Source of the DNA: a virus
Length of the DNA: 24,289 nucleotides
Strand: one strand, 5' to 3'
IMG/VR virus record: IMGVR_UViG_3300049846_000484
Span: 1-24,289 of that record
The notes below the pieces were generated by a model that did no database searches, was not told where the DNA came from, and saw only the letters and a program-made list of their open reading frames with translations. The first letter of the stretch is position 1. Each line of letters starts with the position of its first letter. Below are positions 7,794 to 21,882 of this stretch, in pieces. The position numbers and the translations under genes were made by a program.

Positions 7794-9155
7794 ATGGATA
7801 GCTCTACACCGAGTATATCACAATTCTATCCACACATTGAGTATCAGTTTAAACTCATCAAAGACATTCGAAAGCACTACGATTATTCACTAGGTACGCA
7901 TGAGATTTTGTTAAGCGGATCTGTTGGATCTGCTAAGTCTACAGTAGCTGCTCACTTAGCAGTAACTCACTGCTTATTTAATCCAAATGCAAGGCTAGCA
8001 ATTTGCAGGAGAGCTTTACCAGATATTAAGAGAACTATCTTTTTAAAGATACTAGAACACATCGGACAAGACTTAAAAGAAGGCAAAGACTACAGTGTAA
8101 ATACAACTCTAGGAGTGATTAAATTCTCAAACGGATCTGAGATTATTTCTCTATCGTGGGCTGATAAGAGATATGTAAAGGTAAGGTCAGTTGATCTTTC
8201 TGCTGCTATCTTTGAGGAGATCATAGAAAATACTGGTGATGATATACAAGCATACACAGAGATTAAGATGCGTGTTGGACGCTTGCCACACATTAAAGAG
8301 AAGTGGATAGTAAGCTGTACTAATCCAGACTCACCATCATCTCACTGGTATGATTATTTCTTTGTTAAAGAGTCTAAGACTAAACACATATTTCTATCCA
8401 GAACTGAGGATAATCCTTTTCTGCCAAAGGAATACATAGAGCAGCTAAAGCTAGACCTTGATCCTAAGATGGCTAGACGCATGATTTATGGTGAGTGGGT
8501 AGAGCTAGACAAATCAAGAGTGTATTATGCTTATGAATCAAGTAGAAACTTAATCAATAAGCCTTATGAGATAAACAAGAAATACCCTATCATACTATCG
8601 TTTGACTTTAACATTGGTGAAGGTAAGCCAATGTCATCAGTTGCTATGCAATACTATAATGACACTTTTCACATCTTTGACGAGGTAGTTTTACTTTCTG
8701 CTAGAACTGCTGATGCAATGGACGAATGGAACGGCAAAGGGTATTTTAACGGTGAGTATGAGATAGTTATTCATGGAGATGCTGCTGGTAAGCATAAAGA
8801 TACTAGAAACATTCAGTCAGATTATGACATCATTAGAAAATATCTATCTAACATTACTAGCCTAAAGTTTAGATCAGAAGTTCCACTAGCTAATCCAGCA
8901 ATTAGAACTAGACATAACAGAGTAAATGCATACTGCTTAAATGCTGACAGCAAAGTTAGGCTCTTTGTTTATCAAAAAGCTAAAACAGTAGATAAGGCTT
9001 TAAGATTGACACAACTTAAAAAAGGTGGCGACTATATAGAAGATGATGGCCCATCTCACCCATATCAGCATATCGGTACAGCAGTTGGTTATGCAATTAT
9101 GAGTGAGACTAATAAGCCAACAAGACCAATGATAGAAAGTCACAGGAGATTTTAA
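7794..9155 (+). CDS. terL: terminase large subunit, 453 aa
   Basis: ATPase/nuclease motor that packages DNA through the portal and cuts concatemers. ATPase domain: Walker A GSVGSAKST (42-50, with Ala in place of the usual Gly before Lys) and acidic Walker B region AAIFEE (E141/E142). The coupling region is SCTNPDSPSSHW (around 174-185). RNase H-like nuclease domain: ILSFDFNIG (D271) and VIHGDAAG (D329), with a last conserved HIGTAVGYAI near the end. Length is typical. Directly follows the small subunit and overlaps the portal start by one base. Confidence 0.95.
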   Translation: MDSSTPSISQFYPHIEYQFKLIKDIRKHYDYSLGTHEILLSGSVGSAKSTVAAHLAVTHCLFNPNARLAICRRALPDIKRTIFLKILEHIGQDLKEGKDYSVNTTLGVIKFSNGSEIISLSWADKRYVKVRSVDLSAAIFEEIIENTGDDIQAYTEIKMRVGRLPHIKEKWIVSCTNPDSPSSHWYDYFFVKESKTKHIFLSRTEDNPFLPKEYIEQLKLDLDPKMARRMIYGEWVELDKSRVYYAYESSRNLINKPYEINKKYPIILSFDFNIGEGKPMSSVAMQYYNDTFHIFDEVVLLSARTADAMDEWNGKGYFNGEYEIVIHGDAAGKHKDTRNIQSDYDIIRKYLSNITSLKFRSEVPLANPAIRTRHNRVNAYCLNADSKVRLFVYQKAKTVDKALRLTQLKKGGDYIEDDGPSHPYQHIGTAVGYAIMSETNKPTRPMIESHRRF

Positions 9156-10633
9156 TGCTTAATTACAGTAATCAGCTTTTGTTAAAACAAATCGTAGAAG
9201 AAATAAAAAACTCTGAAAACATGGAGCAGAAAGAAGTATCTCTAGCTGAATGGGAGATATATTCAGATAGAATCTTGCCTCATGTTAAAGCATACTTATC
9301 AGGATTTTACTCGTCTGATTCTTTAAACGAAATACCAATAATTGCTTGCATTAACCTCGCTAAAAGAATCGTAGACAAAGAGGCTGAGATATACACATAT
9401 CCAGTTCAAAGAACATTTAAAGGGCTAACAGATGCTCAAGTAATGTTAATGGAGCAGATTTATAAAGACATGAACATTAACAATGTTATGTTAGTAGCAA
9501 ACAAAAGATACAGACTACAAAACCTACAAACTACTTTGCAAGTAAGTCTAATCAATAAAAAGCTAAAAGCTAAAGTGTTAATGAGGCACCAGGTTGATGT
9601 AGTTCCTTCGCCACTTGATTCAGAGCTTGCAGATGCTTACCTTGTCAGTGGATTTAACAAAGCATATTCTGGAACTAGCAAAGAAGAAACAGATAATCAA
9701 AATCAGTTAATAGCAGATCCAGATGATTACAAAGCAGGAGAGAAGGCCATTAGCTTATGGTCAGATCAGTTTAACTTTGTAATAGATGAAAATGGCAATA
9801 TCATATCAGGCAATGATACGATTAACCCTATTCAAATGATACCTTTTGTAGATGTAGCATCTAGCAAAGATGGTGAGTATTGGCGAGAGGGTGGGGCATC
9901 ACTTACTGATTTTACTATTCAGTTTAATGCTGCTTATTCTGATCTTTCAAACATTGTAAGAATGCAAGGCTTTGCACAAGCATTCTTAGTAACAGCAGAA
10001 GATGGCAATGCTCCTAAAAACTTTCAGATTGGCCCTAATCAGATTTTACACTTAAAAGTAAATCCTGAAAATCCAATACAACCACAATTTAACTATGTAA
10101 ATCCTAATCCTGATCTAGATGGCTCAATTAAGTTTATTGAAAGCCTTTTATCTTCTTTCTTAACTTCTAGAGGTGTTAACCCTAAGACTGTTAATACTAA
10201 AGGTGAGGCAGAGTCTTACTCATCAGGCATTGAAAGATTACTAGCACAGATTGATAGCTTTAAACCTTCTCAACAAGACTTTGATGTATTTAAAGAGGCA
10301 GAAAAAAAGCTATTTAAGATCATTATTAGATACTTAAACACATACCAAGGTAGTGATTTGCTTGAATACAACTTAGGTAACATTAACGAGCAAGCGGCTG
10401 ATGTTGATGTAATCTATGCATCTCCTACTGTTGTTAAGTCTGAGAAAGAAAGACTAGATGAAATCATGCAATTAGTTGAGATGGGTGTAATTACAGAAGT
10501 TGATAAGATTGCAATGGCTAGACAAGTAGACCATGAGACTGCAGAAGAAATACTAGAAGAAATTAAGCAAGAGATGACTGAGCAAGAGTCTGACGCAGAA
10601 GTAGAAAACGAAGAGGAGCCATTACTTGGCTAA
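9155..10633 (+). CDS. portal protein, 492 aa
   Basis: Forms the dodecameric channel at the capsid vertex through which DNA enters and leaves. Evidence: position between large terminase and scaffold/capsid, size near 500, and the portal-type layout with an N-terminal wing (residues 1-110, CINLAKRIVDKEAEIYTYP), a central stem and clip (~220-330), and a helical C-terminal region starting around NPKTVNTKGEAESYSSGIE. The C-terminus is strongly acidic. AGGAG precedes ATG 9155, which overlaps the terminase stop (TAATG). The SPP1 gp6-type portal is the nearest model I know; this is based on pattern, not a search. Confidence 0.85.
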   Translation: MLNYSNQLLLKQIVEEIKNSENMEQKEVSLAEWEIYSDRILPHVKAYLSGFYSSDSLNEIPIIACINLAKRIVDKEAEIYTYPVQRTFKGLTDAQVMLMEQIYKDMNINNVMLVANKRYRLQNLQTTLQVSLINKKLKAKVLMRHQVDVVPSPLDSELADAYLVSGFNKAYSGTSKEETDNQNQLIADPDDYKAGEKAISLWSDQFNFVIDENGNIISGNDTINPIQMIPFVDVASSKDGEYWREGGASLTDFTIQFNAAYSDLSNIVRMQGFAQAFLVTAEDGNAPKNFQIGPNQILHLKVNPENPIQPQFNYVNPNPDLDGSIKFIESLLSSFLTSRGVNPKTVNTKGEAESYSSGIERLLAQIDSFKPSQQDFDVFKEAEKKLFKIIIRYLNTYQGSDLLEYNLGNINEQAADVDVIYASPTVVKSEKERLDEIMQLVEMGVITEVDKIAMARQVDHETAEEILEEIKQEMTEQESDAEVENEEEPLLG

Positions 10634-11198
10634 TCCTAAAGGTCTAACAGTAGAGCTAGATGAAATTAGCCAGACTCTAGACCTTGAGGAGTTAACAGGT
10701 GTTGATGTGTCTCAAGATCCTGAGCTTATGCGTGAGATAGCTCAGGCTACTATTGATTACATGAAGAAAAGAATTACTGAAAATAATCTAGGCATCAATT
10801 ACACAAAACTTAAATCTCCTTACAGTAAGTCTTATCAGGACTCGCTTGAATTTAAAGCAGCAGATAAATCAGCTACTGACATCAACATAACTCTATCAGG
10901 TGAGACCTTAGATAGCTTTGATATTCTAGACGAAGATGGCTCTACAGTTAAGATTGGCTTAAACAACGAAGATGTATTGCCAAGAGCTTATGGTGCAATG
11001 ACAGGATATGAAGGTCACCCGACTATTCCAGAGGGTAAGTATAAAAGACCGTTCTTTGGTATTGGTAAGAAAGAGTTTAAAGAAGAAATCTTGCCTAAGT
11101 TTAAAAAAGACTTAGCTAATGTAGAAAAGAAAGAATCTAGCCAAGACACTTTAATATCTAAAATAAGAACTGCAGCAGATTTCTTTGTAGAGGAATAA
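10626..11198 (+). CDS. putative neck/head-tail joining protein A, 190 aa
   Basis: TTG 10626 follows GGAG with seven bases of spacing and overlaps the portal gene by eight. The layout, an N-terminal helix (REIAQATIDYMKKRITENN), GINYTKLKSPYSKSY, ITLSGETLDSF and a C-terminal helix after KRPFFGIGKKEFKE, resembles HK97 gp10-like or virion morphogenesis-type connector proteins. The following gene has the same landmarks in the same order, so the two look like a tandem duplication. Assignment rests on context and pattern; a minor capsid role is possible. Confidence 0.55.
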   Translation: MANPKGLTVELDEISQTLDLEELTGVDVSQDPELMREIAQATIDYMKKRITENNLGINYTKLKSPYSKSYQDSLEFKAADKSATDINITLSGETLDSFDILDEDGSTVKIGLNNEDVLPRAYGAMTGYEGHPTIPEGKYKRPFFGIGKKEFKEEILPKFKKDLANVEKKESSQDTLISKIRTAADFFVEE

Positions 11199-11795
11199 AT
11201 GCTTAAATTTAAAGTAAATGAAAAGTCTCTTAAAAATGTTGAAGATAATGTTAGAGAGGCTTTTGATAGAGTAATTAAAAATGACCAGATGCTAAATCAA
11301 ATAGGTGATCTAGTAATAAAAGACATTAAGTACACAACTAGAAAAGGTCTTAACTATACTTTATCACAACAATGGAGAAAAGAAAGAAAGAGACTTGCAG
11401 AGCTTGGTCAAGAAACTCACCCGGCATTTTCACCAAATAGAACTAATCTAACTATCTCAGGTCAATTAGTAGACTCACTTAAGAAATTCATTTTAGGTAA
11501 AGGTGTAGTAGAAATTAGACCGGACGGGATACATGAGCCATACATAAGACAAGCTGTTAAGAAGTGGACTAGCTTTTCTAAATACGGAAAGCTATTTGAT
11601 GTCTATAGAAGAAAACCAATAGAGCAAGTGCAAGTTGGTAGCAAAACTCCTAACGAAGAAATTGCAAAAGGGTTAGAAGATCGAGGGATTAAGTTTATAG
11701 TCTTTAATCCAAGACTTACACCTAGAATAAAGCAGCTTGTCATAAATTATATAAGACGCTCGACAAGAGTCCTGAAATTATTCAACAATAAATAA
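11199..11795 (+). CDS. putative neck/head-tail joining protein B, 198 aa
   Basis: Starts right after the previous stop with AGAGGA upstream. Landmarks: QIGDLVIKDIKYTTRKGLNY, WRKERKRLAELG, NLTISGQLVDSL, a VVEIRPDG strand and a C-terminal helix beginning FIVFNPRLTPRIKQLV. These parallel the upstream gene, and the order TSGxxxDSL plus 'R/NPRL' end fits phage morphogenesis (HK97 gp10/tail-completion-like) proteins. It is more basic than its neighbour. Likely sits at the neck. Relationship to the upstream paralogue is my inference. Confidence 0.6.
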   Translation: MLKFKVNEKSLKNVEDNVREAFDRVIKNDQMLNQIGDLVIKDIKYTTRKGLNYTLSQQWRKERKRLAELGQETHPAFSPNRTNLTISGQLVDSLKKFILGKGVVEIRPDGIHEPYIRQAVKKWTSFSKYGKLFDVYRRKPIEQVQVGSKTPNEEIAKGLEDRGIKFIVFNPRLTPRIKQLVINYIRRSTRVLKLFNNK

Positions 11796-12454: not shown

Positions 12455-13303
12455 ATGGCTACAGTAATCACAGGTAATACACAATTATCTGCATCTAAAA
12501 ATAACTTAATCATCGGAATGGTTCAGCGCGAACTAAAATTCGCAGCAAAACTATTACCATTCATCAGTGATTTCTCAATGTTTGCACAAAAGGGTATGAA
12601 ACAAATCCAAGTGCCAAAAATGGGATCTTTCACAGTACAAAACAGAGCATCAGGTGTTGATGGTGATGTTTCTGCTCTTACTGTTACTACTGATGTATTA
12701 AATCTTGACCAAAAAAATTACATCTCTTGGATCGTAGATTCAGCAGATGAAATCGAGTCAAGCATCGCAGTACAAGCTGAGTACATCAAGAGAGCATCTG
12801 CAGCTCACGGTCGTAAGATTGACGAGCTAATCTTAGCTGCTGCTCAAGCTGCTGCAACAGATTTCGGTGCTGGTGTAACTTACGCTAATATGCTAGCGAT
12901 GAATACATTCCTTAAAAAGAATGACGCATTGATGGATCAAGTTGTAATCATCGCATCTCCTGATGCAGAAGAGGACTTAATGTCTTTAGACGAATTTAAG
13001 AGAGCAGATGTTTATGGTGCTCCTGTAATTCCAAACGGACTTGAGCAAGTTGGTAAAATCTTTGGTAGACCTGTTATGATCCACAACGGATTGACTGGCT
13101 CTAAAGTACTAGCTTTTGAAAAGTCTGGTCTTGGTTATGCATTCCAACAACAGCCCAATGTTGCTCGTCAGCCAGAAGTTGGTTACGGTACTTCTGCAGA
13201 GCGCGTAGCAATCGACCTTAAAATGGGTGTTGCTGCTCTACAATTAGGTGAAAAAGGATTGTTGGCTACCGAATCACCACTTATCGCTGGTATCTTGTCT
13301 TAA
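12455..13303 (+). CDS. major capsid protein, 282 aa
   Basis: Shell subunit of the head, HK97 fold by inference. Evidence: location after the scaffold, AGGGG ribosome site, composition with more ATC/GCA/CGT codons than neighbours (high-expression style), and sequence segments typical of phage coat proteins: IQVPKMGSFTVQNRASG, VDSADEIESS, KIDELILAAAQAA, then VVIIASPDAEEDLMS and IFGRPVMIHNG. Length 282 is on the small side for HK97-fold coats but normal for this type. There is no obvious N-terminal delta domain to cleave. Confidence 0.88.
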   Translation: MATVITGNTQLSASKNNLIIGMVQRELKFAAKLLPFISDFSMFAQKGMKQIQVPKMGSFTVQNRASGVDGDVSALTVTTDVLNLDQKNYISWIVDSADEIESSIAVQAEYIKRASAAHGRKIDELILAAAQAAATDFGAGVTYANMLAMNTFLKKNDALMDQVVIIASPDAEEDLMSLDEFKRADVYGAPVIPNGLEQVGKIFGRPVMIHNGLTGSKVLAFEKSGLGYAFQQQPNVARQPEVGYGTSAERVAIDLKMGVAALQLGEKGLLATESPLIAGILS

Positions 13304-18270: not shown

Positions 18271-19206
18271 ATGTCTTGTAACACTAGAAAATATAAACTT
18301 GGTATCAGTAACATTTTGTTAGGTAAAGATGTAAAGCAAGAGTTTTGCATCACTACTAAAGCAGATGTTTCTTCATCACTTAACAACAAATACTTTGTTG
18401 TACATAAAGCTAATGACAATGCTAAGCACTACTTTTGGTTCGATGTCGGAGGTGCTGGGGTAGATCCGGCTGTGCCTAATTCCGTTGGTCACACTATTGC
18501 TATCTCTGCTAATGATTCTGCATCTGCTGTTGCTACTGCTGTTGCATCTGCTCTTGCTGGTGTTGCTACTTTAATTCAGTCTGCTACTGCATCAAGCAAT
18601 GAAGTATCTGTTATGCTTAAAGACTTTGGCCCCGCTTATGTTTCTCGTGACGCTCTTGATCCTGCTGATAGATGTGGATTTAAGTTTGCTTTAGCAAAAG
18701 CTGGTTATGTTCAGATTGATCTTGGGCCAACAGATGGTGAGATTTCTATCACTAAAGAAGAAGAATTTACAGACATTACTTCTGCACAAACAGGATCTTA
18801 TGTTCTAGATCAATTAAGAAAAGGTATGTCAGTATCTGCATCTTTCAGCCTTAAAGATACTTCTAAAGAGATGATGTTGAGAATCATTGGCTTTGACGGT
18901 ACTGTTTATGTAACTGATGACGCTGACTCTAAAGTAATCGGTGGATACGGAACTAAAAATATCTTTACATCTGCAAGTGATGTAGCGACTCAGTTAATCT
19001 TTAGGCCTTCATACAATGCTGCAGACGCTGTGGCTGATGAGGACTTGACTCTTCTTAAAGCTAAGTTAACTCTAGGTGAGTTTGTATTATCACCAGAGGA
19101 CGAGTTGTTATTGCCAGTTGAGGCAGTAGGATACTTAGACGAGTCTCTATACAATGGTTCTAACTATCTTGTTTATGGTGATGCAAGCAAAGTCGGCGAA
19201 GCATAA
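18271..19206 (+). CDS. major tail tube protein, 311 aa
   Basis: AAGGAG before ATG 18271. Tube core: N-terminal KYKLGISNILLG, and residues ~140-311 with GYVQIDLG, LKDTSKEMMLRIIGFD and LTLGEFVLSPEDELLLPVEAVG. Residues ~31-135 appear to be an inserted domain (KYFVVHKANDNAKHYFWFDV, VGHTIAISANDSASAVATAV) of a type I recall from several phage structural proteins, probably on the tube surface. Next to the chaperone and tape measure, as expected. Longer than minimal tube proteins because of the insertion. Confidence 0.82.
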   Translation: MSCNTRKYKLGISNILLGKDVKQEFCITTKADVSSSLNNKYFVVHKANDNAKHYFWFDVGGAGVDPAVPNSVGHTIAISANDSASAVATAVASALAGVATLIQSATASSNEVSVMLKDFGPAYVSRDALDPADRCGFKFALAKAGYVQIDLGPTDGEISITKEEEFTDITSAQTGSYVLDQLRKGMSVSASFSLKDTSKEMMLRIIGFDGTVYVTDDADSKVIGGYGTKNIFTSASDVATQLIFRPSYNAADAVADEDLTLLKAKLTLGEFVLSPEDELLLPVEAVGYLDESLYNGSNYLVYGDASKVGEA

Positions 19207-19229: not shown

Positions 19230-19496
19230 ATGGAGTTTAAGGCTAAGAAAAAGACAATGAAAGTAACTGTATTAGATGGCACTAGCTATGATGTAGCGGT
19301 GCCTTCTGTTGGTCAGATAGAGACTTTAAATGACAAACTACAGGCAGCAGGTGACGCAAAAGCTATCGGGGTTTATAGAGAGTTTTTTGCAGAGCTTGGC
19401 TTGCCAGATGCAGCTTCTAAGTCTTTTGATTATGATGATTTCTTAGACTTCGTTAAGTTTGTAATGTCACCAAAAAAAGAGAAGCCTCAAGCGTAG
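19230..19496 (+). CDS. tail assembly chaperone, short form (gpG-like), 88 aa
   Basis: The start is ATG 19230 with GAGGGG upstream; an in-frame GTG at 19218 lies before that ribosome site. The product begins MEFKAKKKTMKVTVLDGTSYDV and ends with acidic/Lys residues (SPKKEKPQA). Position between tube and tape measure and the presence of a slippery heptamer before the stop identify it as the unshifted product of a lambda G/GT-type pair. It would bind the tape measure to keep it soluble until the tube polymerises. Confidence 0.82.
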   Translation: MEFKAKKKTMKVTVLDGTSYDVAVPSVGQIETLNDKLQAAGDAKAIGVYREFFAELGLPDAASKSFDYDDFLDFVKFVMSPKKEKPQA

Positions 19497-19783
19497 CAAT
19501 TACTAAAGCACAAGTAGCTCGGTTTTATGGCTGGGCTCCTAGTGAGATAAACAAGTTACCATACACAGAATTTCTAGATTATCATTCAGCGATTAAGCAC
19601 CTTGAGGCTAAAGAGTTAATAGATCAGATTTTAATTGGTGATTATCCTCATGCAGATAAGAACTACAGGTCTAGACTTATGAAAAATCTTGAGTCAAGAC
19701 TCTTAAAGGATAAGAATAGTGCTAAGAAAAGCGATAAGGCACTTACTACTAAGCAGCTTTATGATCTTTTAATGAATGGGTGA
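19230..19783 (+). CDS. tail assembly chaperone, -1 frameshift product (gpGT-like), 184 aa
   Basis: The first 83 codons are in the frame of the short form (19230-19478). After A-AAA-AAA (19472-19478) the ribosome slips back one base and reads from 19478 to TGA 19781-19783, adding 101 residues. The second part runs REASSVAITKAQVARFYGW and later KLPYTEFLDYH, then a Lys-rich C-terminus (SAKKSDKALTTKQLYDLLM). It has no start codon of its own until a late ATG that would give only 35 residues, so it must be made by shifting. The extension would contact tail tube subunits. Confidence 0.85.
19472..19478 (+). promoter_or_regulatory. -1 ribosomal frameshift slippery site
   Basis: A AAA AAA in exact X XXY YYZ phase with the zero frame (CCA AAA AAA GAG). 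The stop of the zero frame is 15 bases after it (19494-19496), so most ribosomes end soon after the site. No strong downstream stem was found by eye. Confidence 0.85.
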
Positions 19784-19785
19784 AT

Positions 19786-21882
19786 ATGGCTAGTGATTCT
19801 CAAATTTTAATTGAGATAGTTCTTGAAGATGGCTCAGTACAAAAGGGCTTTGCTAAGATTAAGCAAGAGGCTCAAAAGACATCTAAGGACATCGGCACTG
19901 ATTTTAAGAAAAATGCAAATTTAGAAGATGCCTTAGACATAACAGGTCTGGGCAGTAAGTTTAAAGACCTTGGCAGTAAATTTACAGCTCTTGTAACTAA
20001 TCCAATAGCTCTTGGGCTTGGTGCTTTAGGTGCTGCTGCATTAGCTTTAAAAGCTACATTCGATGAAACAATTAAGGGCGAGAAGCTACAGGCTTTAGAT
20101 AATCAGTTTAGATTATTAGCTGGTAATGCAAACATAGCATCTTCTGAATTAAGAAAGAGCCTAGAAGAGGTTTCTAACGGTTTAATAAATAACACTCAGT
20201 TGATTGAGGCTACTAATAAAGCAATTTTAGAGCTTGGATCTAATGCTGAGAAGTTACCTGAGATATTATCTATAGCTAATAAATTAGCTCAGGCTACTGG
20301 TAAAGATGCATTACAGACTTATGATGAATTATCTACAGCGATTGCTAAGGGTAACCAGAGAAGTCTTGCGAGTCTTGGTATTATTGTTGATCTAGACAAG
20401 GCATATAAGGATTATGCAGATTCTATCGGTTTAACTGTTGGTCAATTAGAAAAGCAAGATAAGCAGCTAGCTACACTTGCAGCAGTATCAGCACAGGCTG
20501 AAAAATCTTTATCTGGTTTAACTGGTAACATTGGCCCTGCTACTACTGAGGCTAAAAAGTTAGCCAATGCTGTTGATGACTTCTTTGATATTATTGCTAC
20601 AAAGACATCTTCTGTAGCTGGCCCTGCTTTTGCGAGCCTTACAAGTTTAGTGACTACATTTGTTAGTAACTTAAATAAAGGTTTAGCAGATGCTCCTAAA
20701 GATCCTCTAGAGAATGCTGCTTTTAATGTTGATAGACTTACAAGTAGAATAGAATTTTTAAAAAATACTTTAAAAGATGGTTTAGACTTTGAAGAGATTA
20801 GACGAGTTGGCGGTGTAACTGAAATCAATAGAGAGATACAAAGCCTTACAAACTCTTTAGAAGTTTATAAATTAAGACAGAGTGAATTAACTCAAAATAT
20901 ATCTCTACAAAAAAGAGAAGAAATAGCACTAGCAGAAATAAGAAAAGAAAATCTAAGAGAGCTTAATGCTGCTGCTGATGTTGCAAAACAAAAACAGCTT
21001 GAGGCTACACAGACAGCTCAAGGTGGCGGTCTAAATATAACTAATCTACAGTTACAGTTAGAGCAACAAAAGCAGTTGTTAGATGGTGCAGAGCTTGAGG
21101 CAGAGACTAGACGATTAAATAGAAGGATTGCAGAGGAGCAGTTTGCAATAGAATTAGCTAACATAGAGGCACAAAAGGCTGCAGATATTTCTGCTAATCT
21201 TGCTAATGCTCAGGCTATTAGAGATTACTATGATGGCATAGAGGCTGCTGCTACTACTAATCATAAACTAAGAATACAAAACATAGAAAATGCAGCAAAT
21301 GAAGAAAGAAGAAAACAATTAGAGAAAACACAAAAGCTATTTCAAATTGTTGTAAGCGGTACTGAGAGAATAGTAGCAGATGGTTTGAGTAGAATTGGGG
21401 CAAGTCTTATTAAAGGACAGGCTGCCTTTGATGGCTTTGCTGGTGCAGTTTTAAATACTATTGGTGATATGATGATTAACCTTGGTATAGCTGCAATAGG
21501 TATAGGAAATATGATAAACAGCATTAGAGACTCTTTAACGAAACTGTTTGGAGGAAACGCCATAGCTGCGGGTGCCGCAATGATAGTAGCAGGTGGAGCA
21601 ATTAAGGCTATTGCCTCATCACTCACAGACACGGCATCTAGTTCTGTTGCTAACTTCGGAGGCTTTGGCGGTGGCACTACTGCAGTAGATACAAACACAG
21701 GACTTGAGCCAATAGATAACACAGCAAGAGCAGAGGTAGAGCGCAGAGCTGACACATCTATAGTAGTTAATTTAAACGGTGATATTTTAGGTGATGAGGA
21801 TAGTGGAGAGAGAATTGTAAGTCTAATCAATACAGCTTTTGATAAAAAAGGTGTAGTAGTTAGACAGGGAGTATTTGCATAA
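19786..21882 (+). CDS. tape measure protein, 698 aa
   Basis: Sets tail length and is ejected with DNA. ATG 19786 (MASDSQILIE) is preferred to in-frame GTG 19780. Layout: helical, Ala/Leu/Lys-rich throughout; hydrophobic segments at ~71-91 (NPIALGLGALGAAALALKA), ~548-578 (IGDMMINLGIAAIGIGNMI) and ~591-613 (AAGAAMIVAGGAIKAIASSL); and long coiled coil at ~380-520 (EEIALAEIRKENLREL). Longest gene in the window. At ~0.15 nm per residue the tail would be about 105 nm. Long minus-strand frames inside it are shadows. Confidence 0.9.
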   Translation: MASDSQILIEIVLEDGSVQKGFAKIKQEAQKTSKDIGTDFKKNANLEDALDITGLGSKFKDLGSKFTALVTNPIALGLGALGAAALALKATFDETIKGEKLQALDNQFRLLAGNANIASSELRKSLEEVSNGLINNTQLIEATNKAILELGSNAEKLPEILSIANKLAQATGKDALQTYDELSTAIAKGNQRSLASLGIIVDLDKAYKDYADSIGLTVGQLEKQDKQLATLAAVSAQAEKSLSGLTGNIGPATTEAKKLANAVDDFFDIIATKTSSVAGPAFASLTSLVTTFVSNLNKGLADAPKDPLENAAFNVDRLTSRIEFLKNTLKDGLDFEEIRRVGGVTEINREIQSLTNSLEVYKLRQSELTQNISLQKREEIALAEIRKENLRELNAAADVAKQKQLEATQTAQGGGLNITNLQLQLEQQKQLLDGAELEAETRRLNRRIAEEQFAIELANIEAQKAADISANLANAQAIRDYYDGIEAAATTNHKLRIQNIENAANEERRKQLEKTQKLFQIVVSGTERIVADGLSRIGASLIKGQAAFDGFAGAVLNTIGDMMINLGIAAIGIGNMINSIRDSLTKLFGGNAIAAGAAMIVAGGAIKAIASSLTDTASSSVANFGGFGGGTTAVDTNTGLEPIDNTARAEVERRADTSIVVNLNGDILGDEDSGERIVSLINTAFDKKGVVVRQGVFA

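Follow-up and report, generated by a model that had tools for sequence, protein, structure and literature searches.

Reading frames between the tail tube and tape measure genes

The question raised by this locus is whether the short gene in front of the tape measure gene encodes one protein or two, and by which route a second product could be reached. Judged from sequence, one gene almost certainly gives rise to two forms of a protein that assists tail building, and the route is very probably a programmed -1 ribosomal frameshift, located in the tail-chaperone gene of a long-tailed, uncultured phage.

The window, meaning the whole stretch of DNA analysed, is a virus record of 24,289 bases taken at full length, with a G+C content of 36.6%. 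Its plus strand carries genes arranged head-to-tail, and all of the features described here lie on this strand. The gene for the terminase large subunit (7794-9155) has terminase matches in phages and served as the anchor for the search for relatives. It is followed by the portal gene (9155-10633), assigned through similarity to the counterpart in the related record L002 and through its position, a probable capsid gene (12455-13303), assigned by position, and a gene for a probable major tail or tail tube protein (18271-19206), which is placed by position and matches PHROG 2175 'protein with Ig domain' with an E value of 7.6e-6. The next gene, G (19230-19496), is preceded by the Shine-Dalgarno-like sequence GAGGGG, encodes a putative short tail assembly chaperone of 88 residues and ends with TAG at 19494-19496. 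An open -1 frame containing the T region (19457-19783) overlaps its end and closes with TGA at 19781-19783. Two bases separate this stop codon from the ATG of the tape measure gene (19786-21882), which matches PHROG 3779 (tail length tape measure protein) with an E value of 1.4e-6 and has an alternative in-frame GTG start at 19780. The G/T pair is thereby located immediately 5' of the tape measure gene and 3' of the tail tube gene, the tube assignment being positional. Neither tRNAs nor matches to Rfam families were found in the window. A gene at positions 1233-1991 contains a long low-complexity KDKDKEEDKDKD stretch.

The slip site

The junction reads CC A AAA AAA GAG AAG CCT CAA GCG TAG. The heptamer A_AAA_AAA (19472-19478) is in phase with G, with codon boundaries at CCA/AAA/AAA/GAG, which is the exact X_XXY_YYZ phase. 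An earlier sequence-only reading had placed it 18 bases before the end of the short frame, which is correct with the stop codon counted; the distance to the TAG itself is 15 nt. After the slip, T starts at 19478 and comprises 101 codons, and the length of 184 residues given in that reading for the G-T fusion, together with its coordinates, was confirmed on recount. The same is true of the proposed lack of a usable start in the overlapping frame: the earliest ATG, at 19679, leaves 34 codons, and no ATG, GTG or TTG start leaving more than 34 codons occurs in the T frame of the window.

Of the 6,875 codon positions in genes of the window, 5 carry an in-phase A_AAA_AAR; at this frequency, about 0.007 occurrences are expected in the 12-codon overlap. 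For any X_XXY_YYZ heptamer, about 0.08 would be expected there by chance. At the stop density of the window's -1 frames, 108 stop-free codons have a chance probability of about 2e-7, and the next longest -1 open run in the window is 65 codons long.

In the proposed mechanism, most ribosomes would stop at the TAG at 19494 and release the 88-residue G. In a minority, the two lysyl-tRNAs would re-pair one base back on A_AAA_AAA, and reading would continue with AGA GAA GCC into the 184-residue G-T fusion. The fusion is probably the minor product. Two tail-chaperone genes examined in a reporter shifted at 6-7% (PMC3711429), and a shift of a low percentage is expected at the A_AAA_AAA of the window. 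In Escherichia coli, A_AAA_AAG is slippier than A_AAA_AAA (PMC5009743); the lower shiftiness of the window's heptamer there and the missing stem at canonical distance, described below, count against the frameshift reading.

Relatives with the same chaperone family

A two-sequence profile of the C-terminal part of the terminase was searched against viral contigs and yielded 80 loci, whose whole records were the target of a tblastn search with the fusion as the query. Homologues of G, T or both were detected in 12 further records, which represent 11 distinct relatives (12 with the window) because L085 and L086 are near-identical. G and T stand in the -1 register in all 12 of these records, and each of the 12 carries an in-phase A_AAA_AAR, either A_AAA_AAA or A_AAA_AAG, 0 to 6 codons before the stop of G. 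Since the records were selected for similar proteins, irrespective of the heptamer, the presence of the latter is no selection effect. The G homologues of the 11 distinct relatives show identities of 13-57%. Homologues of the T frame were detected with tblastn E values down to about 1e-16, with pairwise T identities of only 17-39% and a shared motif, A...xRFYGW, beginning about 10 residues past the junction. The divergence of T with retention of this motif indicates that the reading frame has been preserved by selection across a long divergence.

The slip site, too, appears to be under selection. Among the codons that immediately precede the A run, eight are four-fold degenerate; the third position of these codons forms the X of the heptamer and is A in 7 of the 8 (L002 included), compared to a background of 27% for the genes concerned (P about 7e-4). 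L094 forms the exception, and an extra AAA codon there restores the heptamer.

When G, T and the capsid protein were each used alone to scan viral contigs, no relatives were returned, and the 184-residue fusion gave only weak matches to Synechococcus phages among GenBank phages (E 0.3). The terminase of L002 is 51% identical to that of the window. In L002 it occupies two overlapping ORFs (9986-11370; 199 and 262 residues) in a -1 relation with an ATGA overlap, a split that is either a sequencing error or genuine.

Other routes to the fusion

The fusion could also arise during transcription: if RNA polymerase slipped at the A run, a fraction of the transcripts would contain one additional A and would yield the fusion by conventional translation. 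Slippage is used at nine As in Thermus dnaX (PMC3711429), and nine-A runs at the G/T junction of six distinct relatives (L084, L090, L091, L092, L093 and L094) favor this route. The runs cited for transcriptional slippage are, however, An with n>7 (PMC3711429), whereas the window has seven As. Furthermore, the junctions of L002, L085, L087 and L089 contain six As and then a G, an arrangement below the cited run length but ideal for ribosomal slippage, and the other chaperone family described below mostly uses G_GGA_AAC, without a long homopolymer. As a general account of the pair, polymerase slippage is improbable; it is unlikely at the seven As of the window and possible in the nine-A relatives. 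We infer that the ribosome rather than RNA polymerase slips.

The sequence-only reading had also considered an error in the A run. If a base-count error or mutation had occurred and the true run consisted of eight As, the two frames would be one gene; sequence errors are common in homopolymers, and the window is a virus contig derived from a metagenome. The A run in the separate contigs of the relatives comprises six, seven or nine bases; the -1 register is never broken, the stop of G follows 0 to 6 codons later, and the frames are fused in no relative. This constancy of register over different run lengths makes a base-count error very unlikely. Translation of T alone from an internal or nonstandard start, such as the ATT at 19499 in its frame, or no translation of T at all, is scarcely credible in view of the lack of any conventional start giving more than 34 codons in the window, a conserved T region that begins few codons from the junction, and a heptamer X base that is conserved where the synonymous choice is free.

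Downstream structure and possible stimulators

In programmed ribosomal frameshifting, the usual spacing between heptamer and stem is about 5-9 nt. RNA folding shows no stem at this canonical spacing in the window, where the earlier statement that there is no obvious downstream stem holds; it does not hold for the region overall, as a hairpin occupies 19509-19544, at a distance of 30 nt from the heptamer. The 51-nt fold of this hairpin has an energy of -16.2 kcal/mol (z -2.2), for windows of 70-82 nt that begin immediately 3' of the heptamer, z is -0.8 to -1.4, and the hairpin is not outstanding compared to local controls. Its role as a stimulator is doubtful because it is too distant from the heptamer.

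Among 13 sites, strong downstream folds are present in L002, L087, L089, L085 and L094 and not in the others, with the hairpins of L087 and L002 located four nucleotides past the heptamer. The 13 sites are slightly more structured than local controls (P 0.14 for 50 nt and P 0.03 for 70 nt). As the site folds barely exceed these controls, conservation of a downstream structure, a possibility considered here, is not established. The atypical mechanism suggested by the sequence-only reading is weakly founded, since the downstream structure varies among the relatives, some of which form strong hairpins at the normal distance. A Shine-Dalgarno-like upstream stimulator is absent from the window, and one candidate occurs in L089.

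A stop codon directly 3' of the heptamer is found at 8 of the 13 sites (A_AAA_AAG_UAG type); five codons separate the two in the window. Proximity of a stop codon enhances shifting in pea enation mosaic virus (PMC5009743). Tentatively, and with low confidence, a stop codon occupying the A site may act in place of a stem as the stimulator determining the G:GT ratio in the stem-poor members.

Identity of G and T

Neither G nor T of the window has a significant match in Pfam and PHROGs. AF2 models based on family alignments predict a beta-hairpin plus helices for G (pLDDT 82) and a helical structure for T (pLDDT 78). In the PDB, the top three matches to the G model are the HK97 chaperone 2ob9, with two chains, and YqbN (3klu), with weak E values of 0.12-0.99. 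Among viral structures, many of the named matches to this model are tail assembly chaperones, the best E value of 0.0035 again being weak. A fold search with the T model gave no informative match. The lack of Pfam and PHROG matches for the window's proteins and the weak E values of the fold search count against the chaperone reading.

Some G homologues show more similarity to named families. The best match to PF10109 (Phage_TAC_7) is that of L095, with an E value of 4e-4; its 20.8 bits fall short of the 25 bits of the curated cut-off. Homologues also match PHROG 166 'tail protein' (5e-6). G of the window itself matches neither. With no PF10109 match for the window and homologues below the cut-off, the pair would work like gpG/gpGT without being filed under the named Pfam family. 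A further gene of L002 (12823-13083), situated directly after the portal in the head module, matches Phage_TAC_7 with 38.7 bits, above the curated cut-off; it was rejected as a tail chaperone on account of its place after the portal.

The gpG/gpGT-type chaperone pair proposed by the sequence-only reading is supported by the agreement of the gene order, the in-phase heptamer, the absence of a start for T, the conservation of the T frame in distant relatives, the recurrence of A_AAA_AAR at the equivalent position and, with weak E values, the predicted fold of G. In lambda, G and GT associate with the tape measure protein at a ratio of about 30:1, and the tube protein is recruited through T (PMC5009743). 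By analogy, G of the window would coat the tape measure protein, the T extension would recruit the tail tube subunit, and both G and G-T would depart before the tail is completed. A role of the pair in tail assembly is probable on the strength of this analogy.

A second chaperone pair on related head genes

A different G (∼113 to 132 residues) and T (∼77 to 85 residues) are found in L002 and in many further terminase relatives. With hhalign, no alignment to the window pair was obtained for this second family (T P-value of 0.55; G marginal, at 0.008). In 19 of its records the interval before the tape measure gene is interpretable; in 15 of these 19 the frames overlap in the -1 register and a complete X_XXY_YYZ heptamer is present. 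The usual heptamer is G_GGA_AAC, one codon before the stop, as found in L111, L112, L122-L128 and others. L116, L117, L118 and L119 show a -1 overlap without a classical X_XXY_YYZ heptamer; examples of the junctions in this set are CTG GGG GAG and TTG GGG AAG. The heptamer of L121 lies 36 codons before the stop and is doubtful.

L002 belongs to the second family, its T being 45% identical to that of L125 (E 1e-22), and has the slip site A_AAA_AAG immediately 5' of the stop. This occurrence within a G_GGA_AAC family indicates that the slip motif has switched inside one family with retention of the shift. Within one terminase lineage, two unrelated chaperone families keep the -1 shift, whereas the slip motif differs (A_AAA_AAR versus G_GGA_AAC).

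Comparison with known systems

The lambda-GT-like pair is a new sequence family, and the frameshift strategy itself is textbook. The analysis adds a putative product of 101 codons that annotation by ORFs would miss or mislabel, and it delimits a tail-chaperone family not described before, whose slip site is consistent. The two unrelated families, with their two main slip motifs and variable downstream structure, form a natural series for studying how the G:GT ratio is set.

Lambda gpG/gpGT resembles the window pair in combining a short chaperone with a -1 extended fusion before the tape measure gene and in slipping close to the end of the short frame (PMC5009743). No sequence homology was detected between the lambda and window pairs. 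Their slip heptamers also differ, with A_AAA_AAA in the window and G_GGA_AAG in lambda. The HK97 tail assembly chaperone 2ob9 is the best PDB match to the predicted G fold, with an E value of 0.12 and 14% identity, and is not a relative at the sequence level. The P2 gpE/Mu gp41-type proteins (PF10109, Phage_TAC_7) show weak matches, below 25 bits, to some of the G homologues. The G_GGA_AAC pairs of related phages encode proteins that hhalign does not align with G and T of the window, but share with it the gene order, the -1 register and terminase-related head genes.
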